Position numbers and translations under genes: made by a program. The notes below the pieces were generated by a model that saw only the letters and a program-made list of their open reading frames with translations, was not told the origin of the DNA and did no database searches. Of a stretch of 64,000 nucleotides of DNA, positions 28,247-40,942 are shown one piece after another; the first letter of the stretch is position 1, and each line of letters opens with the position of its first letter. The DNA is taken from NCBI RefSeq assembly GCF_033472595.1, contig NZ_CP137642.1, positions 1,116,001 to 1,180,000 of the forward strand. Direction: 5' to 3'. The DNA is from Methanoculleus receptaculi. GTDB lineage: Archaea > Halobacteriota > Methanomicrobia > Methanomicrobiales > Methanoculleaceae.

Positions 28247-30283
28247 ATGAATGAGATAGAGACGGACTCGCTTGATGCGGCTATAGAACGCGGCCGCACC
28301 AGACTCGATGCACGGATGCAGACCCTCTCCGGCGAACTTGGATACCCGGATACCGCATACGCCCTCCCCGTGACCTATGCCATCACCGGGACTGCCGTTC
28401 GTGATGCCGACGAAGCGCGTGAAGCATACCGGCAGTCCGGCAACAACCTTCTTGTCGCCTGCGAATGCCTGATGGCCGCTGCAGGCGCGGTTGGACCGCC
28501 GTACACGGGTTTCATCCCGGACACGGTTCTCAGGCAGCTCGGCTACACCCTTGTCGACGGGAGCGTCATAGGTCTTGGCCTCATCGTCGGGAAACCTGAG
28601 AGCCCCGATGCAGCCGCCGCCATCTGCCGGGAGATGCAGGAGAAGTACCTCCTCACCTTCCTTGCCGGCGGCGTGGTGGAGGCTCTCTCCGGTGCCGGTG
28701 TCCGGCTGGGACTCGAGTATCGGCTGGTGCCGCTCGGGCCGGAGAGCGCTCGTGGGATCCATTTCGCCGACATCCTTGCCAGGATTGCCATGATGTTTGG
28801 CGGGGTGAAGCCCGGCGATGCCCCGGCCCTCCTCTCTTACGCCGCAGAGAGGGCAAAGGCGTTTGTTGTAGTCTTTCCCGGTCTCACAGATGAGGAGATA
28901 GCGTTTGTCGACTCACTCCGGGTTCTCGGGATGCCTATCCTGACTCTCGACGGCGGTTACCGGGGCGGGGAGTGGATCCCGGTCACCTCCGGTGAAGCCG
29001 TGCAGACCGGCATGGAGCTCCGCGGGATACGGGTCACGGTTACCGCGATCCCGATCCCGATGGCCTGCTCCCCTGCGTTTGAGGGAAAGAGCATCCGCAA
29101 AGAGGAGATGTACGTTGAGTTCGGAGGCGGCCGGACACCTGCTTTCGAACTTCTCCGGACGCGACCGCGCCAGGAGGTCGAGGACGGGAATGTAACCGTC
29201 ATCGGACCGGAGGTTGACGACGTCACGGCAGGCTCCGCCCTCCCGCTTGCGATCCTGGTGGATGTTGCCGGCAAAAGGATGAAGCCCGACTACGAACCCG
29301 TGCTTGAGAGGCGGATCCATACCTTCATCAACTACGGCGAAGGCTCCTGGCACGTCGCCCAGCGCGACCTCGTCTGGGTCAGGCTCTCGAAGGATGCGGT
29401 GGCAAAAGGTGTCAGGATCCGCGACATCGGGACACTGCTTGCCCACAAACTCAAGATGGAGTTCCCGGATCACATCGAAGCGATACAGGTGACGCTTGTA
29501 ACCGAGAGAGCGAAGGTCGAGGAGATGCTCCCGCAGGCGCGTGAGATCTACAGGAGACGCGACGAACGGATTGCCGGCATGAAGGATGACGATGTGGAGG
29601 TCTTCTACTCCTGCACCCTGTGCCAGACGTTTGCTCCAAACCACGTCTGCATCATTACCCCGGAACGCCCGGCGCTATGCGGCGCGATCACATGGCTCGA
29701 TGCCAGGATTGCCCACGAGATCACGCCCTCCGGGGCAAACCAGCCGGTTGAAAAGGGGGGAGCGGTCGACGCTCTCCGCGGCGAGTTTGCAGGTGTGAAC
29801 CGGTTTGTGAAGAAGGCATCTCACGGCGAGACCGACCGGGTCTCGCTCTACAGCATAATAGACTACCCGATGACCGCCTGCGGGTGTTTTGAGTGCATCG
29901 CGGCTATCGTCCCCGAGGTGAACGGCATCCTGATCGTGAACCGTGACCACCCCGGGGAGACGCCGCTCGGTATGACCTTCTCGACCCTTGCCGGGACAAT
30001 CGGCGGCGGTGCGCAGACCCCGGGGTTCCTCGGGATAGCAAAGAACTACATCCTGAGCGAGAGGTTCCTGCAGGCCGAGGGCGGTATCGCGCGGGTGGTC
30101 TGGATGCCGACCTCCTTAAAGGAGGAGCTCGGCGAGCGGCTGCGGGAGAGGCTTGCAGCAGCGGGGATCCCGGAGATGTATGAGAAGATCGCGGACGAGG
30201 TCACGGCGCCGACGATCGAAGACCTGATCGCGTTCCTCGAGCGTGTCGAGCACCCGGCGCTCGCTATGAAACCGCTGATCTGA
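28247..30283 (+). CDS. acsB: acetyl-CoA synthase, bacterial-type full-length
   Basis: A 678-residue enzyme that makes or cleaves acetyl-CoA from a methyl group on a corrinoid protein, CO and CoA. All A-cluster ligands are present: C456, C459, C468 and C478 for the 4Fe-4S cubane, and C545-G546-C547 bridging the two nickel ions. These intervals (3, 9, 10, 67) equal those in the Moorella enzyme. The N-terminal CO-channel domain of bacterial AcsB is also present (ELGYPDTAYALPV, MMFGGVKPGDAP), whereas the usual archaeal CdhC is about 200 residues shorter. It is the first gene of a six-gene operon that lacks CO dehydrogenase. Symbol cdhC is a synonym in archaeal annotation. Confidence 0.95.
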   Translation: MNEIETDSLDAAIERGRTRLDARMQTLSGELGYPDTAYALPVTYAITGTAVRDADEAREAYRQSGNNLLVACECLMAAAGAVGPPYTGFIPDTVLRQLGYTLVDGSVIGLGLIVGKPESPDAAAAICREMQEKYLLTFLAGGVVEALSGAGVRLGLEYRLVPLGPESARGIHFADILARIAMMFGGVKPGDAPALLSYAAERAKAFVVVFPGLTDEEIAFVDSLRVLGMPILTLDGGYRGGEWIPVTSGEAVQTGMELRGIRVTVTAIPIPMACSPAFEGKSIRKEEMYVEFGGGRTPAFELLRTRPRQEVEDGNVTVIGPEVDDVTAGSALPLAILVDVAGKRMKPDYEPVLERRIHTFINYGEGSWHVAQRDLVWVRLSKDAVAKGVRIRDIGTLLAHKLKMEFPDHIEAIQVTLVTERAKVEEMLPQAREIYRRRDERIAGMKDDDVEVFYSCTLCQTFAPNHVCIITPERPALCGAITWLDARIAHEITPSGANQPVEKGGAVDALRGEFAGVNRFVKKASHGETDRVSLYSIIDYPMTACGCFECIAAIVPEVNGILIVNRDHPGETPLGMTFSTLAGTIGGGAQTPGFLGIAKNYILSERFLQAEGGIARVVWMPTSLKEELGERLRERLAAAGIPEMYEKIADEVTAPTIEDLIAFLERVEHPALAMKPLI

Positions 30284-30297
30284 GGAGGGAGTTATCT

Positions 30298-31209
30298 GTG
30301 AGTGAAAACAGTTCTGATAAACCAGCCATCCGGGAGGTGCGCCTCGGCGCAACACGCGCTGAGGGCGGAACCCGGGAGGTATCCTACGTTATAGGCGGCG
30401 AACAGGGTCTGCCGTTCTGCGGCAACGACCCTGGCCGACGCCTTGTGGCACTAGAGATCTGCGACGATCCGGCGATCTGGCCGCCGGTCGTCCGCAACTA
30501 CGTGGGCGACCTTGCAAACAACCCCGAGGATTGGGCAGAGGCAGCGGAGCGCAGATACGGTGCAGACCTTGTGCGGTTGAACTTCACCAGCGCAAAAAAA
30601 CGAGGGTTTGATGCGTTTGCCGAGATCGCCTCGACAACAGAACGCGTGCTTGCGGCAACGACCAGACCCCTGATAATCGAGGGCAGCAACGACCCTCAGG
30701 TTGACAGCGAGGTCTTCCGCCGCTGCGGTGAGGCGGGTGAGGGCGAGCGTCTCCTCCTCGGGACAGCGGAGGCCGACAGATACCGGAGCGTTGCCGCGGC
30801 GGCGCTGGCATACGGGCATCTGGTGATCGCACAGTCGCCCATCGATGTCAACCTGGCAAAACAGCTAAACATCCTTCTCCGGGAGACGGGCGTGCCGGAG
30901 GACCGGATCGTGATCGACCCCTACACAGGGGCGCTCGGCTACGGGTTTGAGTACTCCTACTCGGTGATGGAGCGGATACGTCTTGCCGCGCTCGCCGGCG
31001 ACGGCGACCTGGCGATGCCCATGATCAGCGCTCCCACCGACACCCTCACCATCCGGGAGGTGCGGGAGGCCGTACCGGAGGAGCAGGATGCCATGGCGGT
31101 TGCATGGGAATTCTACACCGCATACTCCGCCTTTGTCGCCGGGGCTTCGATCGTCTCTGTCCGCCATCCGCTGACGGTGGAAAGGCTCAAAAAGGTGCTG
31201 GAGGCCTGA
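30298..31209 (+). CDS. acsD: corrinoid iron-sulfur protein, small (delta) subunit
   Basis: A 303-residue TIM-barrel subunit that forms, with AcsC/CdhE, the corrinoid iron-sulfur protein (CoFeSP) carrying the methyl group to and from acetyl-CoA synthase. Features include REVSYVIGGEQGLPF near the start, VRLNFTSAKKRGFDAFAEIA and RIVIDPYTGALGYGFEYSYS. It is shorter than archaeal CdhD and near the bacterial AcsD length. The GTG at 30298 is preceded by GGAGGG at a good distance. It follows acsB by 14 bases and precedes acsC by 6. Confidence 0.94.
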   Translation: MSENSSDKPAIREVRLGATRAEGGTREVSYVIGGEQGLPFCGNDPGRRLVALEICDDPAIWPPVVRNYVGDLANNPEDWAEAAERRYGADLVRLNFTSAKKRGFDAFAEIASTTERVLAATTRPLIIEGSNDPQVDSEVFRRCGEAGEGERLLLGTAEADRYRSVAAAALAYGHLVIAQSPIDVNLAKQLNILLRETGVPEDRIVIDPYTGALGYGFEYSYSVMERIRLAALAGDGDLAMPMISAPTDTLTIREVREAVPEEQDAMAVAWEFYTAYSAFVAGASIVSVRHPLTVERLKKVLEA

Positions 31210-31215
31210 AAACCG

Positions 31216-32550
31216 ATGGCGATGAAAGCGCTTGATATCTATAAGCACCTGCCGAAGACGAACTGCAAGAAGTGCGGTTACCCGACCTGTCTGGCCTTCG
31301 CCATGAAACTTGCCGTCGGAAAGGCGGATATAGAGGCCTGCCCCGACATAGACCCTGGGGCGAAGGCGCTTCTTGGAGGAGTGACCAGACCGCCGGTGAG
31401 GGCGGTCACGATCGGCGCAGGCGAGCGATCGGTCACGGTCGGCGAGGAGTTTGTCATGTTCCGGCACGAGAAGACCTTCTACCACCCGCCCGGGATCATG
31501 GTGGAGGTCTCCGACACCTGGCCGGATGATGAGGTTCGATCCGTGGTGGCGGAGGTGAGGGAGGCGGTCGTCGAACGTGTGGGTCAGGACCTCGTCCTCA
31601 ACGGTGTGGCGGTGAGAAACGAGAGCGGGGACGCCGATCGGTTCGCAGAGACCGTGTACCTTGCCGGCGGCGGAACCGGTCTTCCGCTCGTGCTGATATC
31701 TGACGACCTTCCAGGTTTTGAGGCGGCCCTTGCGGTAGCAGGACAGTACCGGCCGCTGATCCACGCGGCGACCGCCGATAACTGGGAGCCGCTGGCCGCG
31801 CTTGCTAAACAGTATGGCTCCCCTCTTGTCGTCCGGGCTGGGACGCTGGCCGACCTCGCCGCGCTTGCCGGAAACTGCGCCGGCGCGGGGGTCGCCGACC
31901 TGCTGCTCGACCCCGCACAGGGGTCGCTCCAGGGTTATATCGCCACCGCGACCGCGATCCGGAGGAGCGCCATCGAGCGGACGGAACCCGCGCTCGGCTA
32001 CCCCATCTACCTGGACGCAGGAACATTCAAGGATACCGATGCAGCAGTCGCTGCGGGCATCCTCAAGTATGCGGGGGTCATCGTCACCCCGCGGCTATCC
32101 CGCGCATCGAGGGAGGCGGCGCTCACCCTGCGTCAGAACACCTACACCGACCCGCAGCACCCCATCCAGGTGGCACCCGGGGTCTACCCGGTCAACGATC
32201 CCGGACGGGAGGCGCCCGTCCTCCTCACGGTGAACTTCTCGCTCACCTACTTCACGATCCTTGGCTACCTCGAGGCTTCCCGGATGCCCTGCCACCTCCT
32301 GATCGTGGATACGGAAGGGCTCTCGGTTCTAACATCGGTCGCCGGCGGGAAACTGACGGAGACGATAGTGGCCGATGCTCTCAAGAAGTTCGGCGTCGCC
32401 GACCTGGTTGACCACCGTCTCCTCATAATCCCCGGTTACGCCGCTCCGCTCACCGGGAAGATCGAGGATGCAACCGGCTGGAGGGTGATGGTCGGACCCC
32501 GCGATGCAGCCGATCTCCCTGAATACCTTGAGAAGGAGTGGAAGACCTGA
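31216..32550 (+). CDS. acsC: corrinoid iron-sulfur protein, large (gamma) subunit
   Basis: A 444-residue protein. The N-terminal domain carries one low-potential 4Fe-4S cluster: C17, C20, C25 and C42 in TNCKKCGYPTCLAF ... IEACP. A TIM barrel follows, and the C-terminal B12-binding domain holds the cobamide that is methylated (VADLVDHRLLIIPGYAAPLTGKIEDA). Archaeal synonym is cdhE. ATG 31216 (MAMKAL) or 31222 may be used. Its stop overlaps the start of acsV by one base (TGATG). Confidence 0.95.
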   Translation: MAMKALDIYKHLPKTNCKKCGYPTCLAFAMKLAVGKADIEACPDIDPGAKALLGGVTRPPVRAVTIGAGERSVTVGEEFVMFRHEKTFYHPPGIMVEVSDTWPDDEVRSVVAEVREAVVERVGQDLVLNGVAVRNESGDADRFAETVYLAGGGTGLPLVLISDDLPGFEAALAVAGQYRPLIHAATADNWEPLAALAKQYGSPLVVRAGTLADLAALAGNCAGAGVADLLLDPAQGSLQGYIATATAIRRSAIERTEPALGYPIYLDAGTFKDTDAAVAAGILKYAGVIVTPRLSRASREAALTLRQNTYTDPQHPIQVAPGVYPVNDPGREAPVLLTVNFSLTYFTILGYLEASRMPCHLLIVDTEGLSVLTSVAGGKLTETIVADALKKFGVADLVDHRLLIIPGYAAPLTGKIEDATGWRVMVGPRDAADLPEYLEKEWKT

Positions 32551-34475
32551 TGCCGACGGTGACGTTCCTCCCCGGCTACCGGAAGGTGACCGTTCCCGAG
32601 GGGACGAGCCTTCTTGATGCGGCACGCGCGGCCGGTCTTGCGATGAACGTGGTCTGCGGCGGGCAGGGTAAGTGCGGAAAGTGTCTGGTCTTCATAAAGA
32701 GCGGGAATGTCTCGTTTGAACGCGAAAAATTCCGCAAATTCTTCTCCGACCCAGAGATCGCGCGGGGTGCCTGCCTTGCCTGCCAGGCGACCGTTCTCGG
32801 TGACGTCCTGGTGGATGTCCCGGAAGGATCGCTCATCCAGGAGCAGAAGATCCTGGTGGAGATCCCTGGCAGGGAGGAGATCCCGCTCAACCCTGCCGTC
32901 AGGAAGTATGAGGTCTACCTCAGTCCGCCGTCGCTCGATGACACCACCCCTGACCTCACCAGGCTGCTGGAAGGGGTTGAAGCGGTGGGCGGACCGCCTC
33001 CAAACCGTGTCTACGCGCCGCTTGGTGTCCTCCGCTACCTCCCGCAGGTGCTCCGGCGGAGTGACTGGCACGTGACCGCCACGGTCGCGCTCGTGCCCGG
33101 CGGGTATCGACTGAGCAGTGTGGACAAGGGCGACACCACCGGCCGGGTATACGGCGCGGCGGTCGACCTCGGAACGACGACGGTCGTGGTCTACCTCTGG
33201 AGCCTGGTCGATGGCCAGATCCTCTCCACGGCGTCCAACTACAACCGGCAGATCTCCTGCGGCGAGGATATCCTCTCAAGGGTGAACTTCTCCAGGAAGG
33301 GCGGTCTTGCACGGCTGCAGCACCTCGCAGCGGAGAGCATAAATGAGGCGCTGAAGAGCGCCGCAGATGCCGCCGGGATAGATCTTGAAGAGGTCTTTGA
33401 GGTGATGGTTGCCGGAAACACCGTGATGACACACCTCTTTCTCGGGATCGACCCCGGCTACATGATCGCCGAGCCCTACATACCGGTCGTGCAGCGGATG
33501 CTCTCGACGGCCGCCCGCCGGGTCGGCATCGCGACACATGAGAACACCGGCATCTACACCTTCCCCGCGGTCTCGAACTTCATCGGCGGCGATGTAATCG
33601 CCGATATCCTGGCCACCGGGATGACGGAACGCGAGGAGGTCACCCTCCTGATAGATATAGGCACTAACTTCGAGGCCGTGCTCGGCAACCGTGACTGGAT
33701 GCTCTCCTGCTCGGGTGCTGCCGGCCCCGCCCTCGAGGGTGGAGAGGTGCTGTTTGGTATGCGCGCAAACCCCGGCGCGATCGAGAGCATCCAGATCGAT
33801 CCCGCTACGCTCACACCAACCTACACGACCATCAACAGCATAGCAGCCCCCCGGGGCATCTGCGGTTCGGGCCTCGTCGATCTGGTTGCGGAACTGCTCC
33901 GTGCCTGTGTCATCGACCGAACAGGCGGAATCAACCTTGAGATTGATCACCCCCGGATCCGGAAAGGAAGGTATGCCCCGGAGTTTGTTGTGGCCTGGAA
34001 GGAGGAGACACAGATAGGGAAGGATATCGTCATAACCGAGAACGACATCAAGAACCTCATCATGAGCAAGGCCGCGATCCACGGCGCCTGCATGACGCTG
34101 CTCGATGCGGCGGGGCTGACGGCTCGCGATATCGAGAGGGTCTGCCTCTCGGGGGCGTTCGGGAACTACATCAACAAGGAGAACGCCATCACGATCGGGT
34201 TGATCCCTGATGTGCCCCTCGAGCGTGTGGAGAATATCGGGAACGGTGCGATCACGGGTGCAAACATCGCCCTGGTCAACCGCAAACGGCGTAAGGAACT
34301 CGACGGCCTTGCAAGGAAGATCACATACATCGAACTGAATGCCGACCCCTCCTTCATGGACCGCTACACATCGAGCTGTTTCCTGCCGCACACCGACCTT
34401 TCGCTATTCCCGCGCGTGCAGCAGATGCTTGAGGCGTGCAGGCTGGGGCAGGGGGTGGGCTCACGGCAGGGATGA
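32550..34475 (+). CDS. acsV: ATP-dependent reductive activator of corrinoid proteins
   Basis: A 641-residue protein. An N-terminal 2Fe-2S ferredoxin domain uses C36, C42, C45 and C75 or C78. A long linker and a C-terminal ASKHA ATPase domain follow (VYGAAVDLGTTTVVVYLW, LIDIGTNFEAVLGN, LSGAFGNYINKENAITIG). Proteins of this type (AcsV/RACo) reduce cobalt that has been oxidised to Co(II), returning CoFeSP to the active Co(I) state. They belong to bacterial acs clusters; methanogens more often use RamA-type activators. Start at ATG 32550, overlapping the acsC stop. Confidence 0.9.
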   Translation: MPTVTFLPGYRKVTVPEGTSLLDAARAAGLAMNVVCGGQGKCGKCLVFIKSGNVSFEREKFRKFFSDPEIARGACLACQATVLGDVLVDVPEGSLIQEQKILVEIPGREEIPLNPAVRKYEVYLSPPSLDDTTPDLTRLLEGVEAVGGPPPNRVYAPLGVLRYLPQVLRRSDWHVTATVALVPGGYRLSSVDKGDTTGRVYGAAVDLGTTTVVVYLWSLVDGQILSTASNYNRQISCGEDILSRVNFSRKGGLARLQHLAAESINEALKSAADAAGIDLEEVFEVMVAGNTVMTHLFLGIDPGYMIAEPYIPVVQRMLSTAARRVGIATHENTGIYTFPAVSNFIGGDVIADILATGMTEREEVTLLIDIGTNFEAVLGNRDWMLSCSGAAGPALEGGEVLFGMRANPGAIESIQIDPATLTPTYTTINSIAAPRGICGSGLVDLVAELLRACVIDRTGGINLEIDHPRIRKGRYAPEFVVAWKEETQIGKDIVITENDIKNLIMSKAAIHGACMTLLDAAGLTARDIERVCLSGAFGNYINKENAITIGLIPDVPLERVENIGNGAITGANIALVNRKRRKELDGLARKITYIELNADPSFMDRYTSSCFLPHTDLSLFPRVQQMLEACRLGQGVGSRQG

Positions 34476-35497
34476 TACCCTCCCCAGAACTCAATGCAAC
34501 GGGTGTCGGGGGGCTGCCCCACCGTGACCCGGAGGAGGCCTGCCGGGCAGTGCTTGAAATCTTTCCCCGTATCCCCTATGTGCCCACCCTGCCGAACCGG
34601 GGGCTCCTGGAGGGGATAGTCTTTGCAGACTCCGAGCACCTCCCCGGCGGCGTGATCAGGGACGGCAGACTCGTTCTCGACCGGAGCATCGATCCCTCTG
34701 AGGCGATGGAGCGGATCCTGCTCGACTACCTTGAGGGGAACGCAGAGCCCTACGCGGTCGGCAGGGACTACGGTTCGGGGTTTCATGCGATGATGACCCG
34801 CGACCTCTCGGACGCACTGATAGTCAAGTGTCAGGTGACGGGTCCGGTCACGTTCGGGATGCAGGTTGTGGATGAGGCGCGCCGGCCCATCCTCTACGAC
34901 CCGGAGTACGCCGACCTGCTTGGAAAACTTCTGGGTCTGCGGGCGCGGTGGTGTGAGATCGCGATGCGCGAGCGGATGATGGCGCGTGAGACGCTGGTGG
35001 TCCTGAGCGAGCCCTACCTTGCCTCGCTCGGGTCAGCGGTCGTGCCGGTGGATGCGGGGGTCGCAGCGTCTGCGTTCCAGGATATCGCCTCTATCCTGGA
35101 TGGAGGGCTCGGGATCCACTGCTGCGCGAACACCGACTGGAGTTTTGTCCTGGGTCTCCGGCCGGCCCTGGTCTCGATCGATGCCTGGACGTATGCACGC
35201 GAGTTTCTGCTCTACCTCGATGAGGTTGCGGCATACATGGAGGATGGCGGGGTTGTTGCCTGGGGGATCGTCCCGGCCGATTACACCGTCTTCGCCGCGG
35301 AGAGTCAGGACTCGTTCTTCTCGAGGTTCCAGGCGATCCGCGCCCGTGCAGCCGGGATCATCGATCCCGACCTCTTTGACCGGCAGTCGATGATCACACC
35401 GACCTGCGGGATCCGGACCGCCGGCGAGCGTGAGGCTGTCGCGATCATGGAGGCGGCCGCCTCGCTCTCACGCCGCCTGCGGGGTGAGGGGGCATGA
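34472..35497 (+). CDS. core MetE-like zinc methyltransferase (MesB/MesC-like)
   Basis: A 341-residue protein with the UROD/MetE TIM-barrel fold and only the catalytic half of cobalamin-independent methionine synthase. It opens ATGVGGLPHRDPEEACRAVL, a hallmark of core-MetE proteins. Probable zinc ligands are H216 and C218 (GIHCCANTDW), D237 in VSIDAW at the place of the MetE glutamate, and C312 in TPTCGIRTAG. Folate-independent methionine synthases of the MesB and MesC families lie in genomes with CoFeSP and are predicted to take its methyl group. The ATG at 34472 overlaps the acsV stop (ATGA), so it is firmly part of the operon. A methylcobamide:thiol transferase is the main alternative. Confidence 0.75.
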   Translation: MIPSPELNATGVGGLPHRDPEEACRAVLEIFPRIPYVPTLPNRGLLEGIVFADSEHLPGGVIRDGRLVLDRSIDPSEAMERILLDYLEGNAEPYAVGRDYGSGFHAMMTRDLSDALIVKCQVTGPVTFGMQVVDEARRPILYDPEYADLLGKLLGLRARWCEIAMRERMMARETLVVLSEPYLASLGSAVVPVDAGVAASAFQDIASILDGGLGIHCCANTDWSFVLGLRPALVSIDAWTYAREFLLYLDEVAAYMEDGGVVAWGIVPADYTVFAAESQDSFFSRFQAIRARAAGIIDPDLFDRQSMITPTCGIRTAGEREAVAIMEAAASLSRRLRGEGA

Positions 35498-36249
35498 CCC
35501 GGCCGTGCACCGTTGTCATATCCGGGAAAGGCGGGACAGGGAAGACCACGATCTCGGCGCTCCTGGTTGATGCCCTGGTCAGGGCAGGCGAACGTCCGAT
35601 CCTTGCCGTGGATGCCGATCCAAACGCGAACCTTCACGAGGCTCTCGGCATCACGCTCAATGAGACGCTGGGGAGCATGCGCGAGGAGGCCTTCACCCGC
35701 TCCATCCCGCCCGGCATGGACAGGACGGGCTACATCAGGTACCGGTTCCGCCGGGCGCTGGCGGAGGCGGAGGGCTACGACCTTCTTGCCATGGGACGGC
35801 CTGAGGGGTCGGGATGCTACTGTTTCCCAAACGCGCTCTTAAAGGAGTGCATCGAAACGCTCGAACGCGACTACCGGTACGTCATCGTGGACTCCGAGGC
35901 GGGTATGGAGCACATATCCCGAGGGACCATCAGGAGACCGGATATCCTGCTGATAGCAAGCGATCCTGGAGCCCGCGGGATCCGGACCGCCGGCCGCATC
36001 CGCGACCTTGCGGAGTCGCTCGGTCTTGAGCCCGAGAAGATATTCCTGGTCGTCAACCGTGACCACGGGGATGCTGTTATCGAGAGCGATCTCCCGCTTA
36101 TCGCCCGGATCCCGGAGGACCCGGCTGTCGATGAGGCAGACCTTGCGGGAACGCCGATCGCGGAGATACCTGACGAGAGTCCGGCGCGGGTGGCGGTTCG
36201 TGACCTTGCCGCGCGGGTGGTCGAGACCTGTGCCAGGCGGCGTGGGTAA
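35494..36249 (+). CDS. acsF: nickel-insertion ATPase (CooC/AcsF type)
   Basis: A 251-residue MinD/CooC-family ATPase that matures nickel sites of CO dehydrogenase or acetyl-CoA synthase. The deviant P-loop is G11-KGGTGK17, with switch region VDADPNANLHEALG. The metal-binding CxC is C108-Y-C110 in GSGCYCFPN. With no CO dehydrogenase in this operon, its likely client is AcsB. It overlaps the MetE-like gene by four bases and ends the operon. A poorly conserved 180-base gap separates it from purB. Confidence 0.9.
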   Translation: MTRPCTVVISGKGGTGKTTISALLVDALVRAGERPILAVDADPNANLHEALGITLNETLGSMREEAFTRSIPPGMDRTGYIRYRFRRALAEAEGYDLLAMGRPEGSGCYCFPNALLKECIETLERDYRYVIVDSEAGMEHISRGTIRRPDILLIASDPGARGIRTAGRIRDLAESLGLEPEKIFLVVNRDHGDAVIESDLPLIARIPEDPAVDEADLAGTPIAEIPDESPARVAVRDLAARVVETCARRRG

Positions 36250-39748: not shown

Positions 39749-40942
39749 ATGTATCCTTCAAGAGAGCAAATCACGCTCCTCATGAAGCACATCCATGCCT
39801 GTCGGTTTGTGTACAACCATTCTCTGGAACAGAAGATCAAAGCATACGAGCAAGATGGCCAAAAACTCTCTTGCTTCGACTTGAACAATCGTCTTCCTGC
39901 CCTCAAGGAAGAATATCCGTGGCTCAAGGAAGTCAACTCGCAGTCGCTCCAGAGTGCAAACAAGAACCTCGACAACGCTTTCACCCGGTTCTTCAGGGAG
40001 AAGAAGGAATTCCCCCGGTTCAAGTCAAAGAAGAACCCTGTACGGTCTTTTCAGGTACCACAACATTACCATGTGAATTTTGACCAGAGGACGATCAAAT
40101 TCCCTAAGATCGGTGAGGTTAAGACCGTCTTCCACCGAATCTTCACTGGGAAGATGAAGTATGCCACGGTGTCTGTAACATCGACGGGAAAATGGTTTGT
40201 CAGCATCCTTGTCGACGACGAGGAACCTGAGCCTAAACCTGTACCGTTCACATCTGACACGACGGTCGGGATTGATGTTGGCTTAACCGACTTCGCAACC
40301 TTCTCCACTGGAGAGAAGATTGAGAACCCCCGATACCTGAAGACCTCCCTCCAGCGGTTGAAAGTGTTGCAAAGGCGAGTGTCACGGAAGAAGAAGGGGT
40401 CAAAGAACCAAGAGAAGGCGATCCGGAAACTTGCCCGGTGCCATGAAAAAGTCGCCAACCAAAGAAACGATTTCCTGCACAAAATCTCTTTTCGAGTTGT
40501 GAGCGAGAACCAAGCTATTGCAGTGGAGTCGTTGAATGTTGGCGGGATGATGAAGAACCATTGTCTGGCACAGGGGATTGGAGATGTATCGTGGAGCACG
40601 TTCTTTACGATGCTGGATTACAAATGTCGAAAGTATGGGAAGACGCTCCTGAAGATCGGGCGGTTCGATCCATCCTCAAAGATATGTAATAATTGTGGAT
40701 ATCTCGAGCGGGATCTTGCCCTCTCTGAGAGGGAATGGGTCTGCCCGGTCTGTGATACTCATCACGACCGCGATATCAATGCGGCGATCAATATCAAGAA
40801 GTTCGCCCTGCAAGAACAGAATCTTGTCGGGGTATCAGGTGCGGGACGCACCGTTGAGCCTGTGGACTCGCTCCCGGTGGGGAGGAGGATGAAGCAGGAA
40901 GCCACGCCCGAGAGGCGCGTGGTAGTTCACCTGTCTGCATGA
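39749..40942 (+). CDS. tnpB: TnpB RNA-guided nuclease of an IS605/IS607-like element
   Basis: A 397-residue RuvC-like nuclease, the Cas12 ancestor, guided by an RNA from its own 3' end. The catalytic acids are D176 (VGIDVGLTDFA), E260 (AVESLNVGGM) and D340/D342 (HHDRDINAAINI). The zinc finger is CNNCGYL ... WVCPVC. No tnpA is nearby. Upstream codons from GTG 39725 read M-L-Q-A-stop-K-Y-R and then join the ATG at 39749; full-length TnpB usually starts MLQAYKYR, so a TAA replaces a Tyr codon. Translation may restart at 39749 with loss of eight residues. Confidence 0.9.
   Translation: MYPSREQITLLMKHIHACRFVYNHSLEQKIKAYEQDGQKLSCFDLNNRLPALKEEYPWLKEVNSQSLQSANKNLDNAFTRFFREKKEFPRFKSKKNPVRSFQVPQHYHVNFDQRTIKFPKIGEVKTVFHRIFTGKMKYATVSVTSTGKWFVSILVDDEEPEPKPVPFTSDTTVGIDVGLTDFATFSTGEKIENPRYLKTSLQRLKVLQRRVSRKKKGSKNQEKAIRKLARCHEKVANQRNDFLHKISFRVVSENQAIAVESLNVGGMMKNHCLAQGIGDVSWSTFFTMLDYKCRKYGKTLLKIGRFDPSSKICNNCGYLERDLALSEREWVCPVCDTHHDRDINAAINIKKFALQEQNLVGVSGAGRTVEPVDSLPVGRRMKQEATPERRVVVHLSA
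40840..40930 (+). ncRNA. putative omegaRNA 3' part at the tnpB right end
   Basis: The last codons of tnpB coincide with a GGTGGGGAGGAGGATGAAGC stretch and a hairpin CCACGC-CCGAGAGGC-GCGTGG followed by TAGTTCAC. In characterised IS605 elements this region is the scaffold of the guide RNA, and the flanking bases (CTGTCTGCATGATACACGGG here) are the guide. Assignment is by position and resemblance. Confidence 0.5.

Follow-up and report, generated by a model that had tools for sequence, protein, structure and literature searches.

Gene content of the locus

The window analyzed here, a 64,000-nucleotide stretch of the Methanoculleus receptaculi genome, contains an operon in which genes for acetyl-CoA synthase, the CoFeSP subunits, a RACo-like activator and a CooC-like ATPase surround a frame for a MetE-type protein:

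28247..30283, + strand: acsB, acetyl-CoA synthase with N-terminal domain, bacterial-type length (NF040764, 904 bits, cut-off 800; PF19436, PF03598)
30298..31209, + strand: cdhD/acsD, CoFeSP small subunit (NF003376, over cut-off)
31216..32550, + strand: cdhE/acsC, CoFeSP large corrinoid subunit, predicted methyl donor (NF003195, 529.7 bits, cut-off 306)
32538..34475, + strand: acsV/RACo-like reductive activator of corrinoid protein (PF14574, PF17651, PF17650, Fer2; NF040756, 562 bits, below the cut-off of 800)
34472..35497, + strand: mesB, probable MetE-type core methionine synthase, 341 aa, predicted zinc ligands H216/C218/D237/C312 (sequence, profile, predicted fold)
35494..36249, + strand: CooC/AcsF-like MinD-family ATPase (CbiA/MinD matches; conserved beside mesB)

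The product of 34472-35497 is quite probably a core methionine synthase of the MesB family, in which zinc-activated homocysteine would be methylated by CoFeSP. AcsC and AcsD, the expected companions of MesB, are both encoded within its operon. A sequence-only reading of this DNA had the operon linking the protein to AcsB physically; the linkage stands at the level of the operon, and the word "physically" goes further than that. The CooC/AcsF-like ATPase is likely a nickel-insertion maturation factor, and purB follows directly after its gene. Elsewhere in the window, an IS200/IS605-type TnpB RNA-guided endonuclease is encoded at 39749-40942 on the + strand (NF038281, over cut-off).

As the sequence-only reading had noted, mesB overlaps both neighbors by ATGA, with the RACo stop and MesB start at 34472-34475 and the MesB stop and CooC-like start at 35494-35497. 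A longer frame could open at a GTG at 34436, but the MIPSPEL start is kept in relatives. Translation yields the 341 residues and the H216-x-C218, D237 and C312 pattern already described (residue 217 is also a cysteine); the ATGVGGLPHRDPEEA motif, previously taken for the protein start, begins at residue 9. Identity ranges from 48 to 90% across 53 aligned orthologues, in which H216, C218, D237 and C312 are invariant, and this conservation of frame and putative ligands argues against a chance reading frame. The closest named match, from Methanoculleus sp. Yes49-05 (locus L053), is 90% identical.

Fold and family assignment

None of the Pfam and NCBIfam models matches the 341-aa protein, and a sequence search of solved structures with the single sequence and with profiles returned nothing relevant. 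The structure model is of high confidence (pLDDT 95.5), and its best PDB matches are MesD (3RPD, Z 25.5) and MetE catalytic halves (Z ~24). Because the model aligns along the whole length of 3RPD and with MetE residues ~392-740, the protein corresponds to a single MetE catalytic domain without the folate-binding N-terminal half, sharing the fold of MetE and MesD (Z 22-25) at 10-19% identity over the aligned chains. Profile comparison agrees: hhalign of the MesB profile against MesA/MetE gives 95% (E 2e-8) and places H216, C218, D237 and C312 onto H186, C188, E209 and C270, with the D599 position aligned too. The earlier description of a MetE-type protein without folate domain is therefore borne out, with MesB as the best-matching family.

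MesB was characterized as the Dehalococcoides core-MetE, a 343-aa protein with H215, C217, D236 and C312 that uses methylcobalamin (Deobald et al., PMC7005905), and was named MesB by Price et al. (PMC7857596), with Asp in place of Glu665; a published threshold for the family is a phmmer score to DET0516 above 173 bits. Price et al. (PMC7857596) predicted CoFeSP as the MesB donor. They described certain methanogens in which mesB shares an operon with acsC and acsD, as well as some Methanomicrobiales that have both MesA and MesB. The Dehalococcoides mccartyi protein (cbdbA481, DET0516; PMC7005905, PMC7857596) is likewise a single-domain MetE catalytic half of ~340 aa, and by published description its His/Cys/Asp/Cys ligands at 215, 217, 236 and 312 correspond to 216, 218, 237 and 312 here. 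The aspartate third ligand, which had been singled out as unusual, has in fact been reported for characterized MesB (PMC7857596, PMC7005905) and is the family norm, and all four ligand residues are invariant in 100/100 orthologues. Both D. mccartyi and M. receptaculi encode AcsB and CoFeSP and have no CO dehydrogenase (CODH). The two systems differ in that mesB lies near SAM-cycle genes in D. mccartyi but inside the acsB-acsD-acsC-RACo operon here, that MesA is also present here, and that the equivalents of MetE Ser433 and Asp599 are replaced here.

Two other archaeal core synthases were considered and rejected as identities for this protein. MesA (PRK00957/NF002119) shares the MetE fold and the zinc H-x-C...C motif, but is ~300 aa long, carries Glu as third ligand, lies at an unlinked locus and is predicted to use MtrA (PMC7857596); the protein here has no NF002119 match and an Asp third ligand, and a different gene encodes this genome's MesA. 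MesC of Methanosarcinales and Archaeoglobi is also predicted to use CoFeSP, but is reported from other orders and mostly has His at the second zinc position (PMC7857596), which is Cys218 here.

The protein and its gene arrangement fit a family described in 2020-2021 and are largely ordinary. Less routine are the occurrence in a genome without CODH and the replacement, in most of the clade, of two MetE contacts to homocysteine.

MesB co-occurs with long AcsB

Among 41 genomes (the M. receptaculi genome and 40 relatives), MesB is present in 17, exactly those whose AcsB is long (636-749-residue frames), and in 0/24 of the others, including two genomes with only a short archaeal CdhC (468-471 residues). 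The gene order AcsB-CdhD-CdhE-RACo-MesB-CooC is conserved across Methanomicrobiales at almost all loci whose flanks are long enough, with a median gap of -1 base from the MesB stop to the start of the aligned CooC; no CooC match was found in the 1.1 kb after MesB at locus L111 or in the 0.8 kb after it at locus L120.

In a survey of the phylum, 41/392 genomes contain a MesB match, 38 of them Methanomicrobiales and three, with distant matches, from another family. CoFeSP is encoded in 3/3 of the latter genomes; CoFeSP genes were not found beside the two of their MesB-like genes read in context (L153:6694-7752 and L154:7720-8778), which adjoin radical-SAM, glycosyltransferase, nitroreductase or metallophosphoesterase genes and whose products carry Ser and Asp at the two homocysteine-contact positions. 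A scan of genome contigs returned matches from Methanomicrobiales only, and viral contigs queried with a bacterial MesB-like protein gave none. The plasmid search found a Desulfosarcina homologue with 27% identity, used only as an outgroup. This Desulfosarcina ovata plasmid gene (L031:7980-9008), annotated as hypothetical, encodes H-x-C...D...C ligands and lies amid nitric oxide/hydroxylamine detoxification genes (norR, FprA, hcp).

A search of the M. receptaculi genome for other methionine synthases, suggested as a check by the sequence-only reading, found a separate MesA at G000:C1:1921932 (NF002119, 386 bits, cut-off 258). MesB is thus an additional synthase tied to AcsB and not the sole candidate. 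More broadly, a PF01717 synthase is present in 40/41 of the genomes and in 34/34 high-quality Methanomicrobiales genomes, those with MesB and those lacking it alike, so methionine as such does not require MesB.

A genome without CO dehydrogenase

The M. receptaculi genome is a single contig of 1.98 Mb and 99.76% complete, and no CODH catalytic subunit was found in it: a search with the CODH model returns only a hybrid cluster protein. This hydroxylamine reductase, the genome's sole member of the CODH superfamily, lies outside the window (G000:C1:871574-873150, locus L033) in a frame apparently split near the N-terminus, and the copy in the nearest relative, G002, is split too (C33:112854-114447). 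Nothing in another genome with AcsB and MesB (G012, 99% complete) matches the Prismane family. The remaining AcsB/MesB genomes mostly carry additional Prismane-family genes of CODH length at other loci, and the copy in G001 is confirmed as CODH.

The lack of CODH makes acetyl-CoA, via AcsB, a plausible source of methyl groups, as proposed for Dehalococcoides. Where CODH is absent, AcsB may supply methyl from acetyl-CoA, or CdhD/CdhE may take it from methyl-tetrahydromethanopterin. Three B12-binding-domain matches in the genome lie in frames of 393-464 residues. L187, the one of them that was examined, belongs to the B12 radical-SAM proteins; the search therefore found no MtaC-sized corrinoid protein as a competing donor.

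Alternative acceptors and functions

Two positions that contact homocysteine in MetE differ in this clade. At the Ser433 equivalent this protein has G14, and the 100 orthologues have Ala (64), Gly (19) and Ser (16); at the Asp599 equivalent it has S179, and the orthologues have Asn (76), Ser (13) and Asp (9). MesB proteins are expected to keep both contacts in most cases, though this is not given as a strict defining trait. These replacements, together with a MesA-type synthase in every high-quality genome, allow a different thiol acceptor. On such a reading, a zinc methyltransferase derived from MesB would drain methyl from CoFeSP onto another thiol, for example coenzyme M, which would also accord with the presence of MesB tracking AcsB rather than methionine need and with MesA already serving methionine synthesis in the same genomes. 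We consider it unlikely. When changes at positions 14 and 179 are traced on a quick tree, the seven labelled combinations together require 17 changes, with Ser and Asp arising repeatedly, a pattern that points to tolerance more than to a single substrate switch. Furthermore, E47 is invariant in the orthologues, outgroups included, and may replace MetE Glu484 in binding the amino group, and the protein does not group with coenzyme M methylases. Slightly less likely again is the more specific proposal that the Methanomicrobiales clade as a whole switched its acceptor (e.g., to coenzyme M), forming a CoFeSP-to-thiol outlet of an acetyl-CoA-cleaving operon without CODH.

Zinc thiol chemistry and a TIM barrel are features of the MtaA/CmuA coenzyme M methylases. 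That the protein could itself be such a methylcobalamin:CoM methyltransferase of the UROD superfamily is suggested by the shared H-x-C...C zinc pattern and barrel fold and by matches to M. mazei methyltransferase structures (4ay7/4ay8), but this identity, already disfavored, was rejected as extremely improbable: MtaA and UROD structures match at Z ~19 as compared with 22-25 for MetE/MesD, hhalign gives 6% for CmuA/MtaA-like and 0.15% for UROD-like profiles as compared with 95% for MesA/MetE, and there is no Pfam UROD match. The grouping with MtaA/CmuA that the sequence-only reading had named as counting against it was not seen. Since the UROD-like Methanomicrobiales proteins L167, L170, L172 and L173 do not have the H-x-C motif (for example HLASGR in L167) and so make poor controls for zinc methylases, CmuA was compared as well. 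The protein might instead be a MesB derivative with no catalytic role, serving the AcsB/CoFeSP complex as an accessory or regulatory subunit and comparable to the Chloroflexales homologues that have no ligands (PMC7857596). This would fit the invariant place between RACo and CooC and the redundancy with MesA; it is nevertheless very unlikely, given that the four ligand residues are kept in all 100 orthologues, unlike in those homologues.

Proposed reaction and implications

For a MesB-family methionine synthase at this locus, zinc held by H216, C218, D237 and C312 would activate the homocysteine thiol. The methyl would then pass to this thiol from methyl-cob(III)amide carried by CoFeSP (CdhD/CdhE, whose genes lie two to three positions upstream), giving methionine and cob(I)amide. 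RACo would re-reduce the corrinoid once it reached Co(II). The presumed direction of flux is toward methionine, with methyl groups plausibly entering either by AcsB cleavage of acetyl-CoA or from methyl-tetrahydromethanopterin by way of CdhD/CdhE.

If this is true, a single operon encodes the CoFeSP donor and its activator alongside the acceptor enzyme, and the prediction that CoFeSP feeds MesB would be directly assayable, as Methanoculleus includes cultured methanogens. That a complete genome lacks CODH suggests that acetyl-CoA synthase and CoFeSP can serve as a methyl-supply route and not for CO2 fixation, paralleling the proposal for Dehalococcoides.
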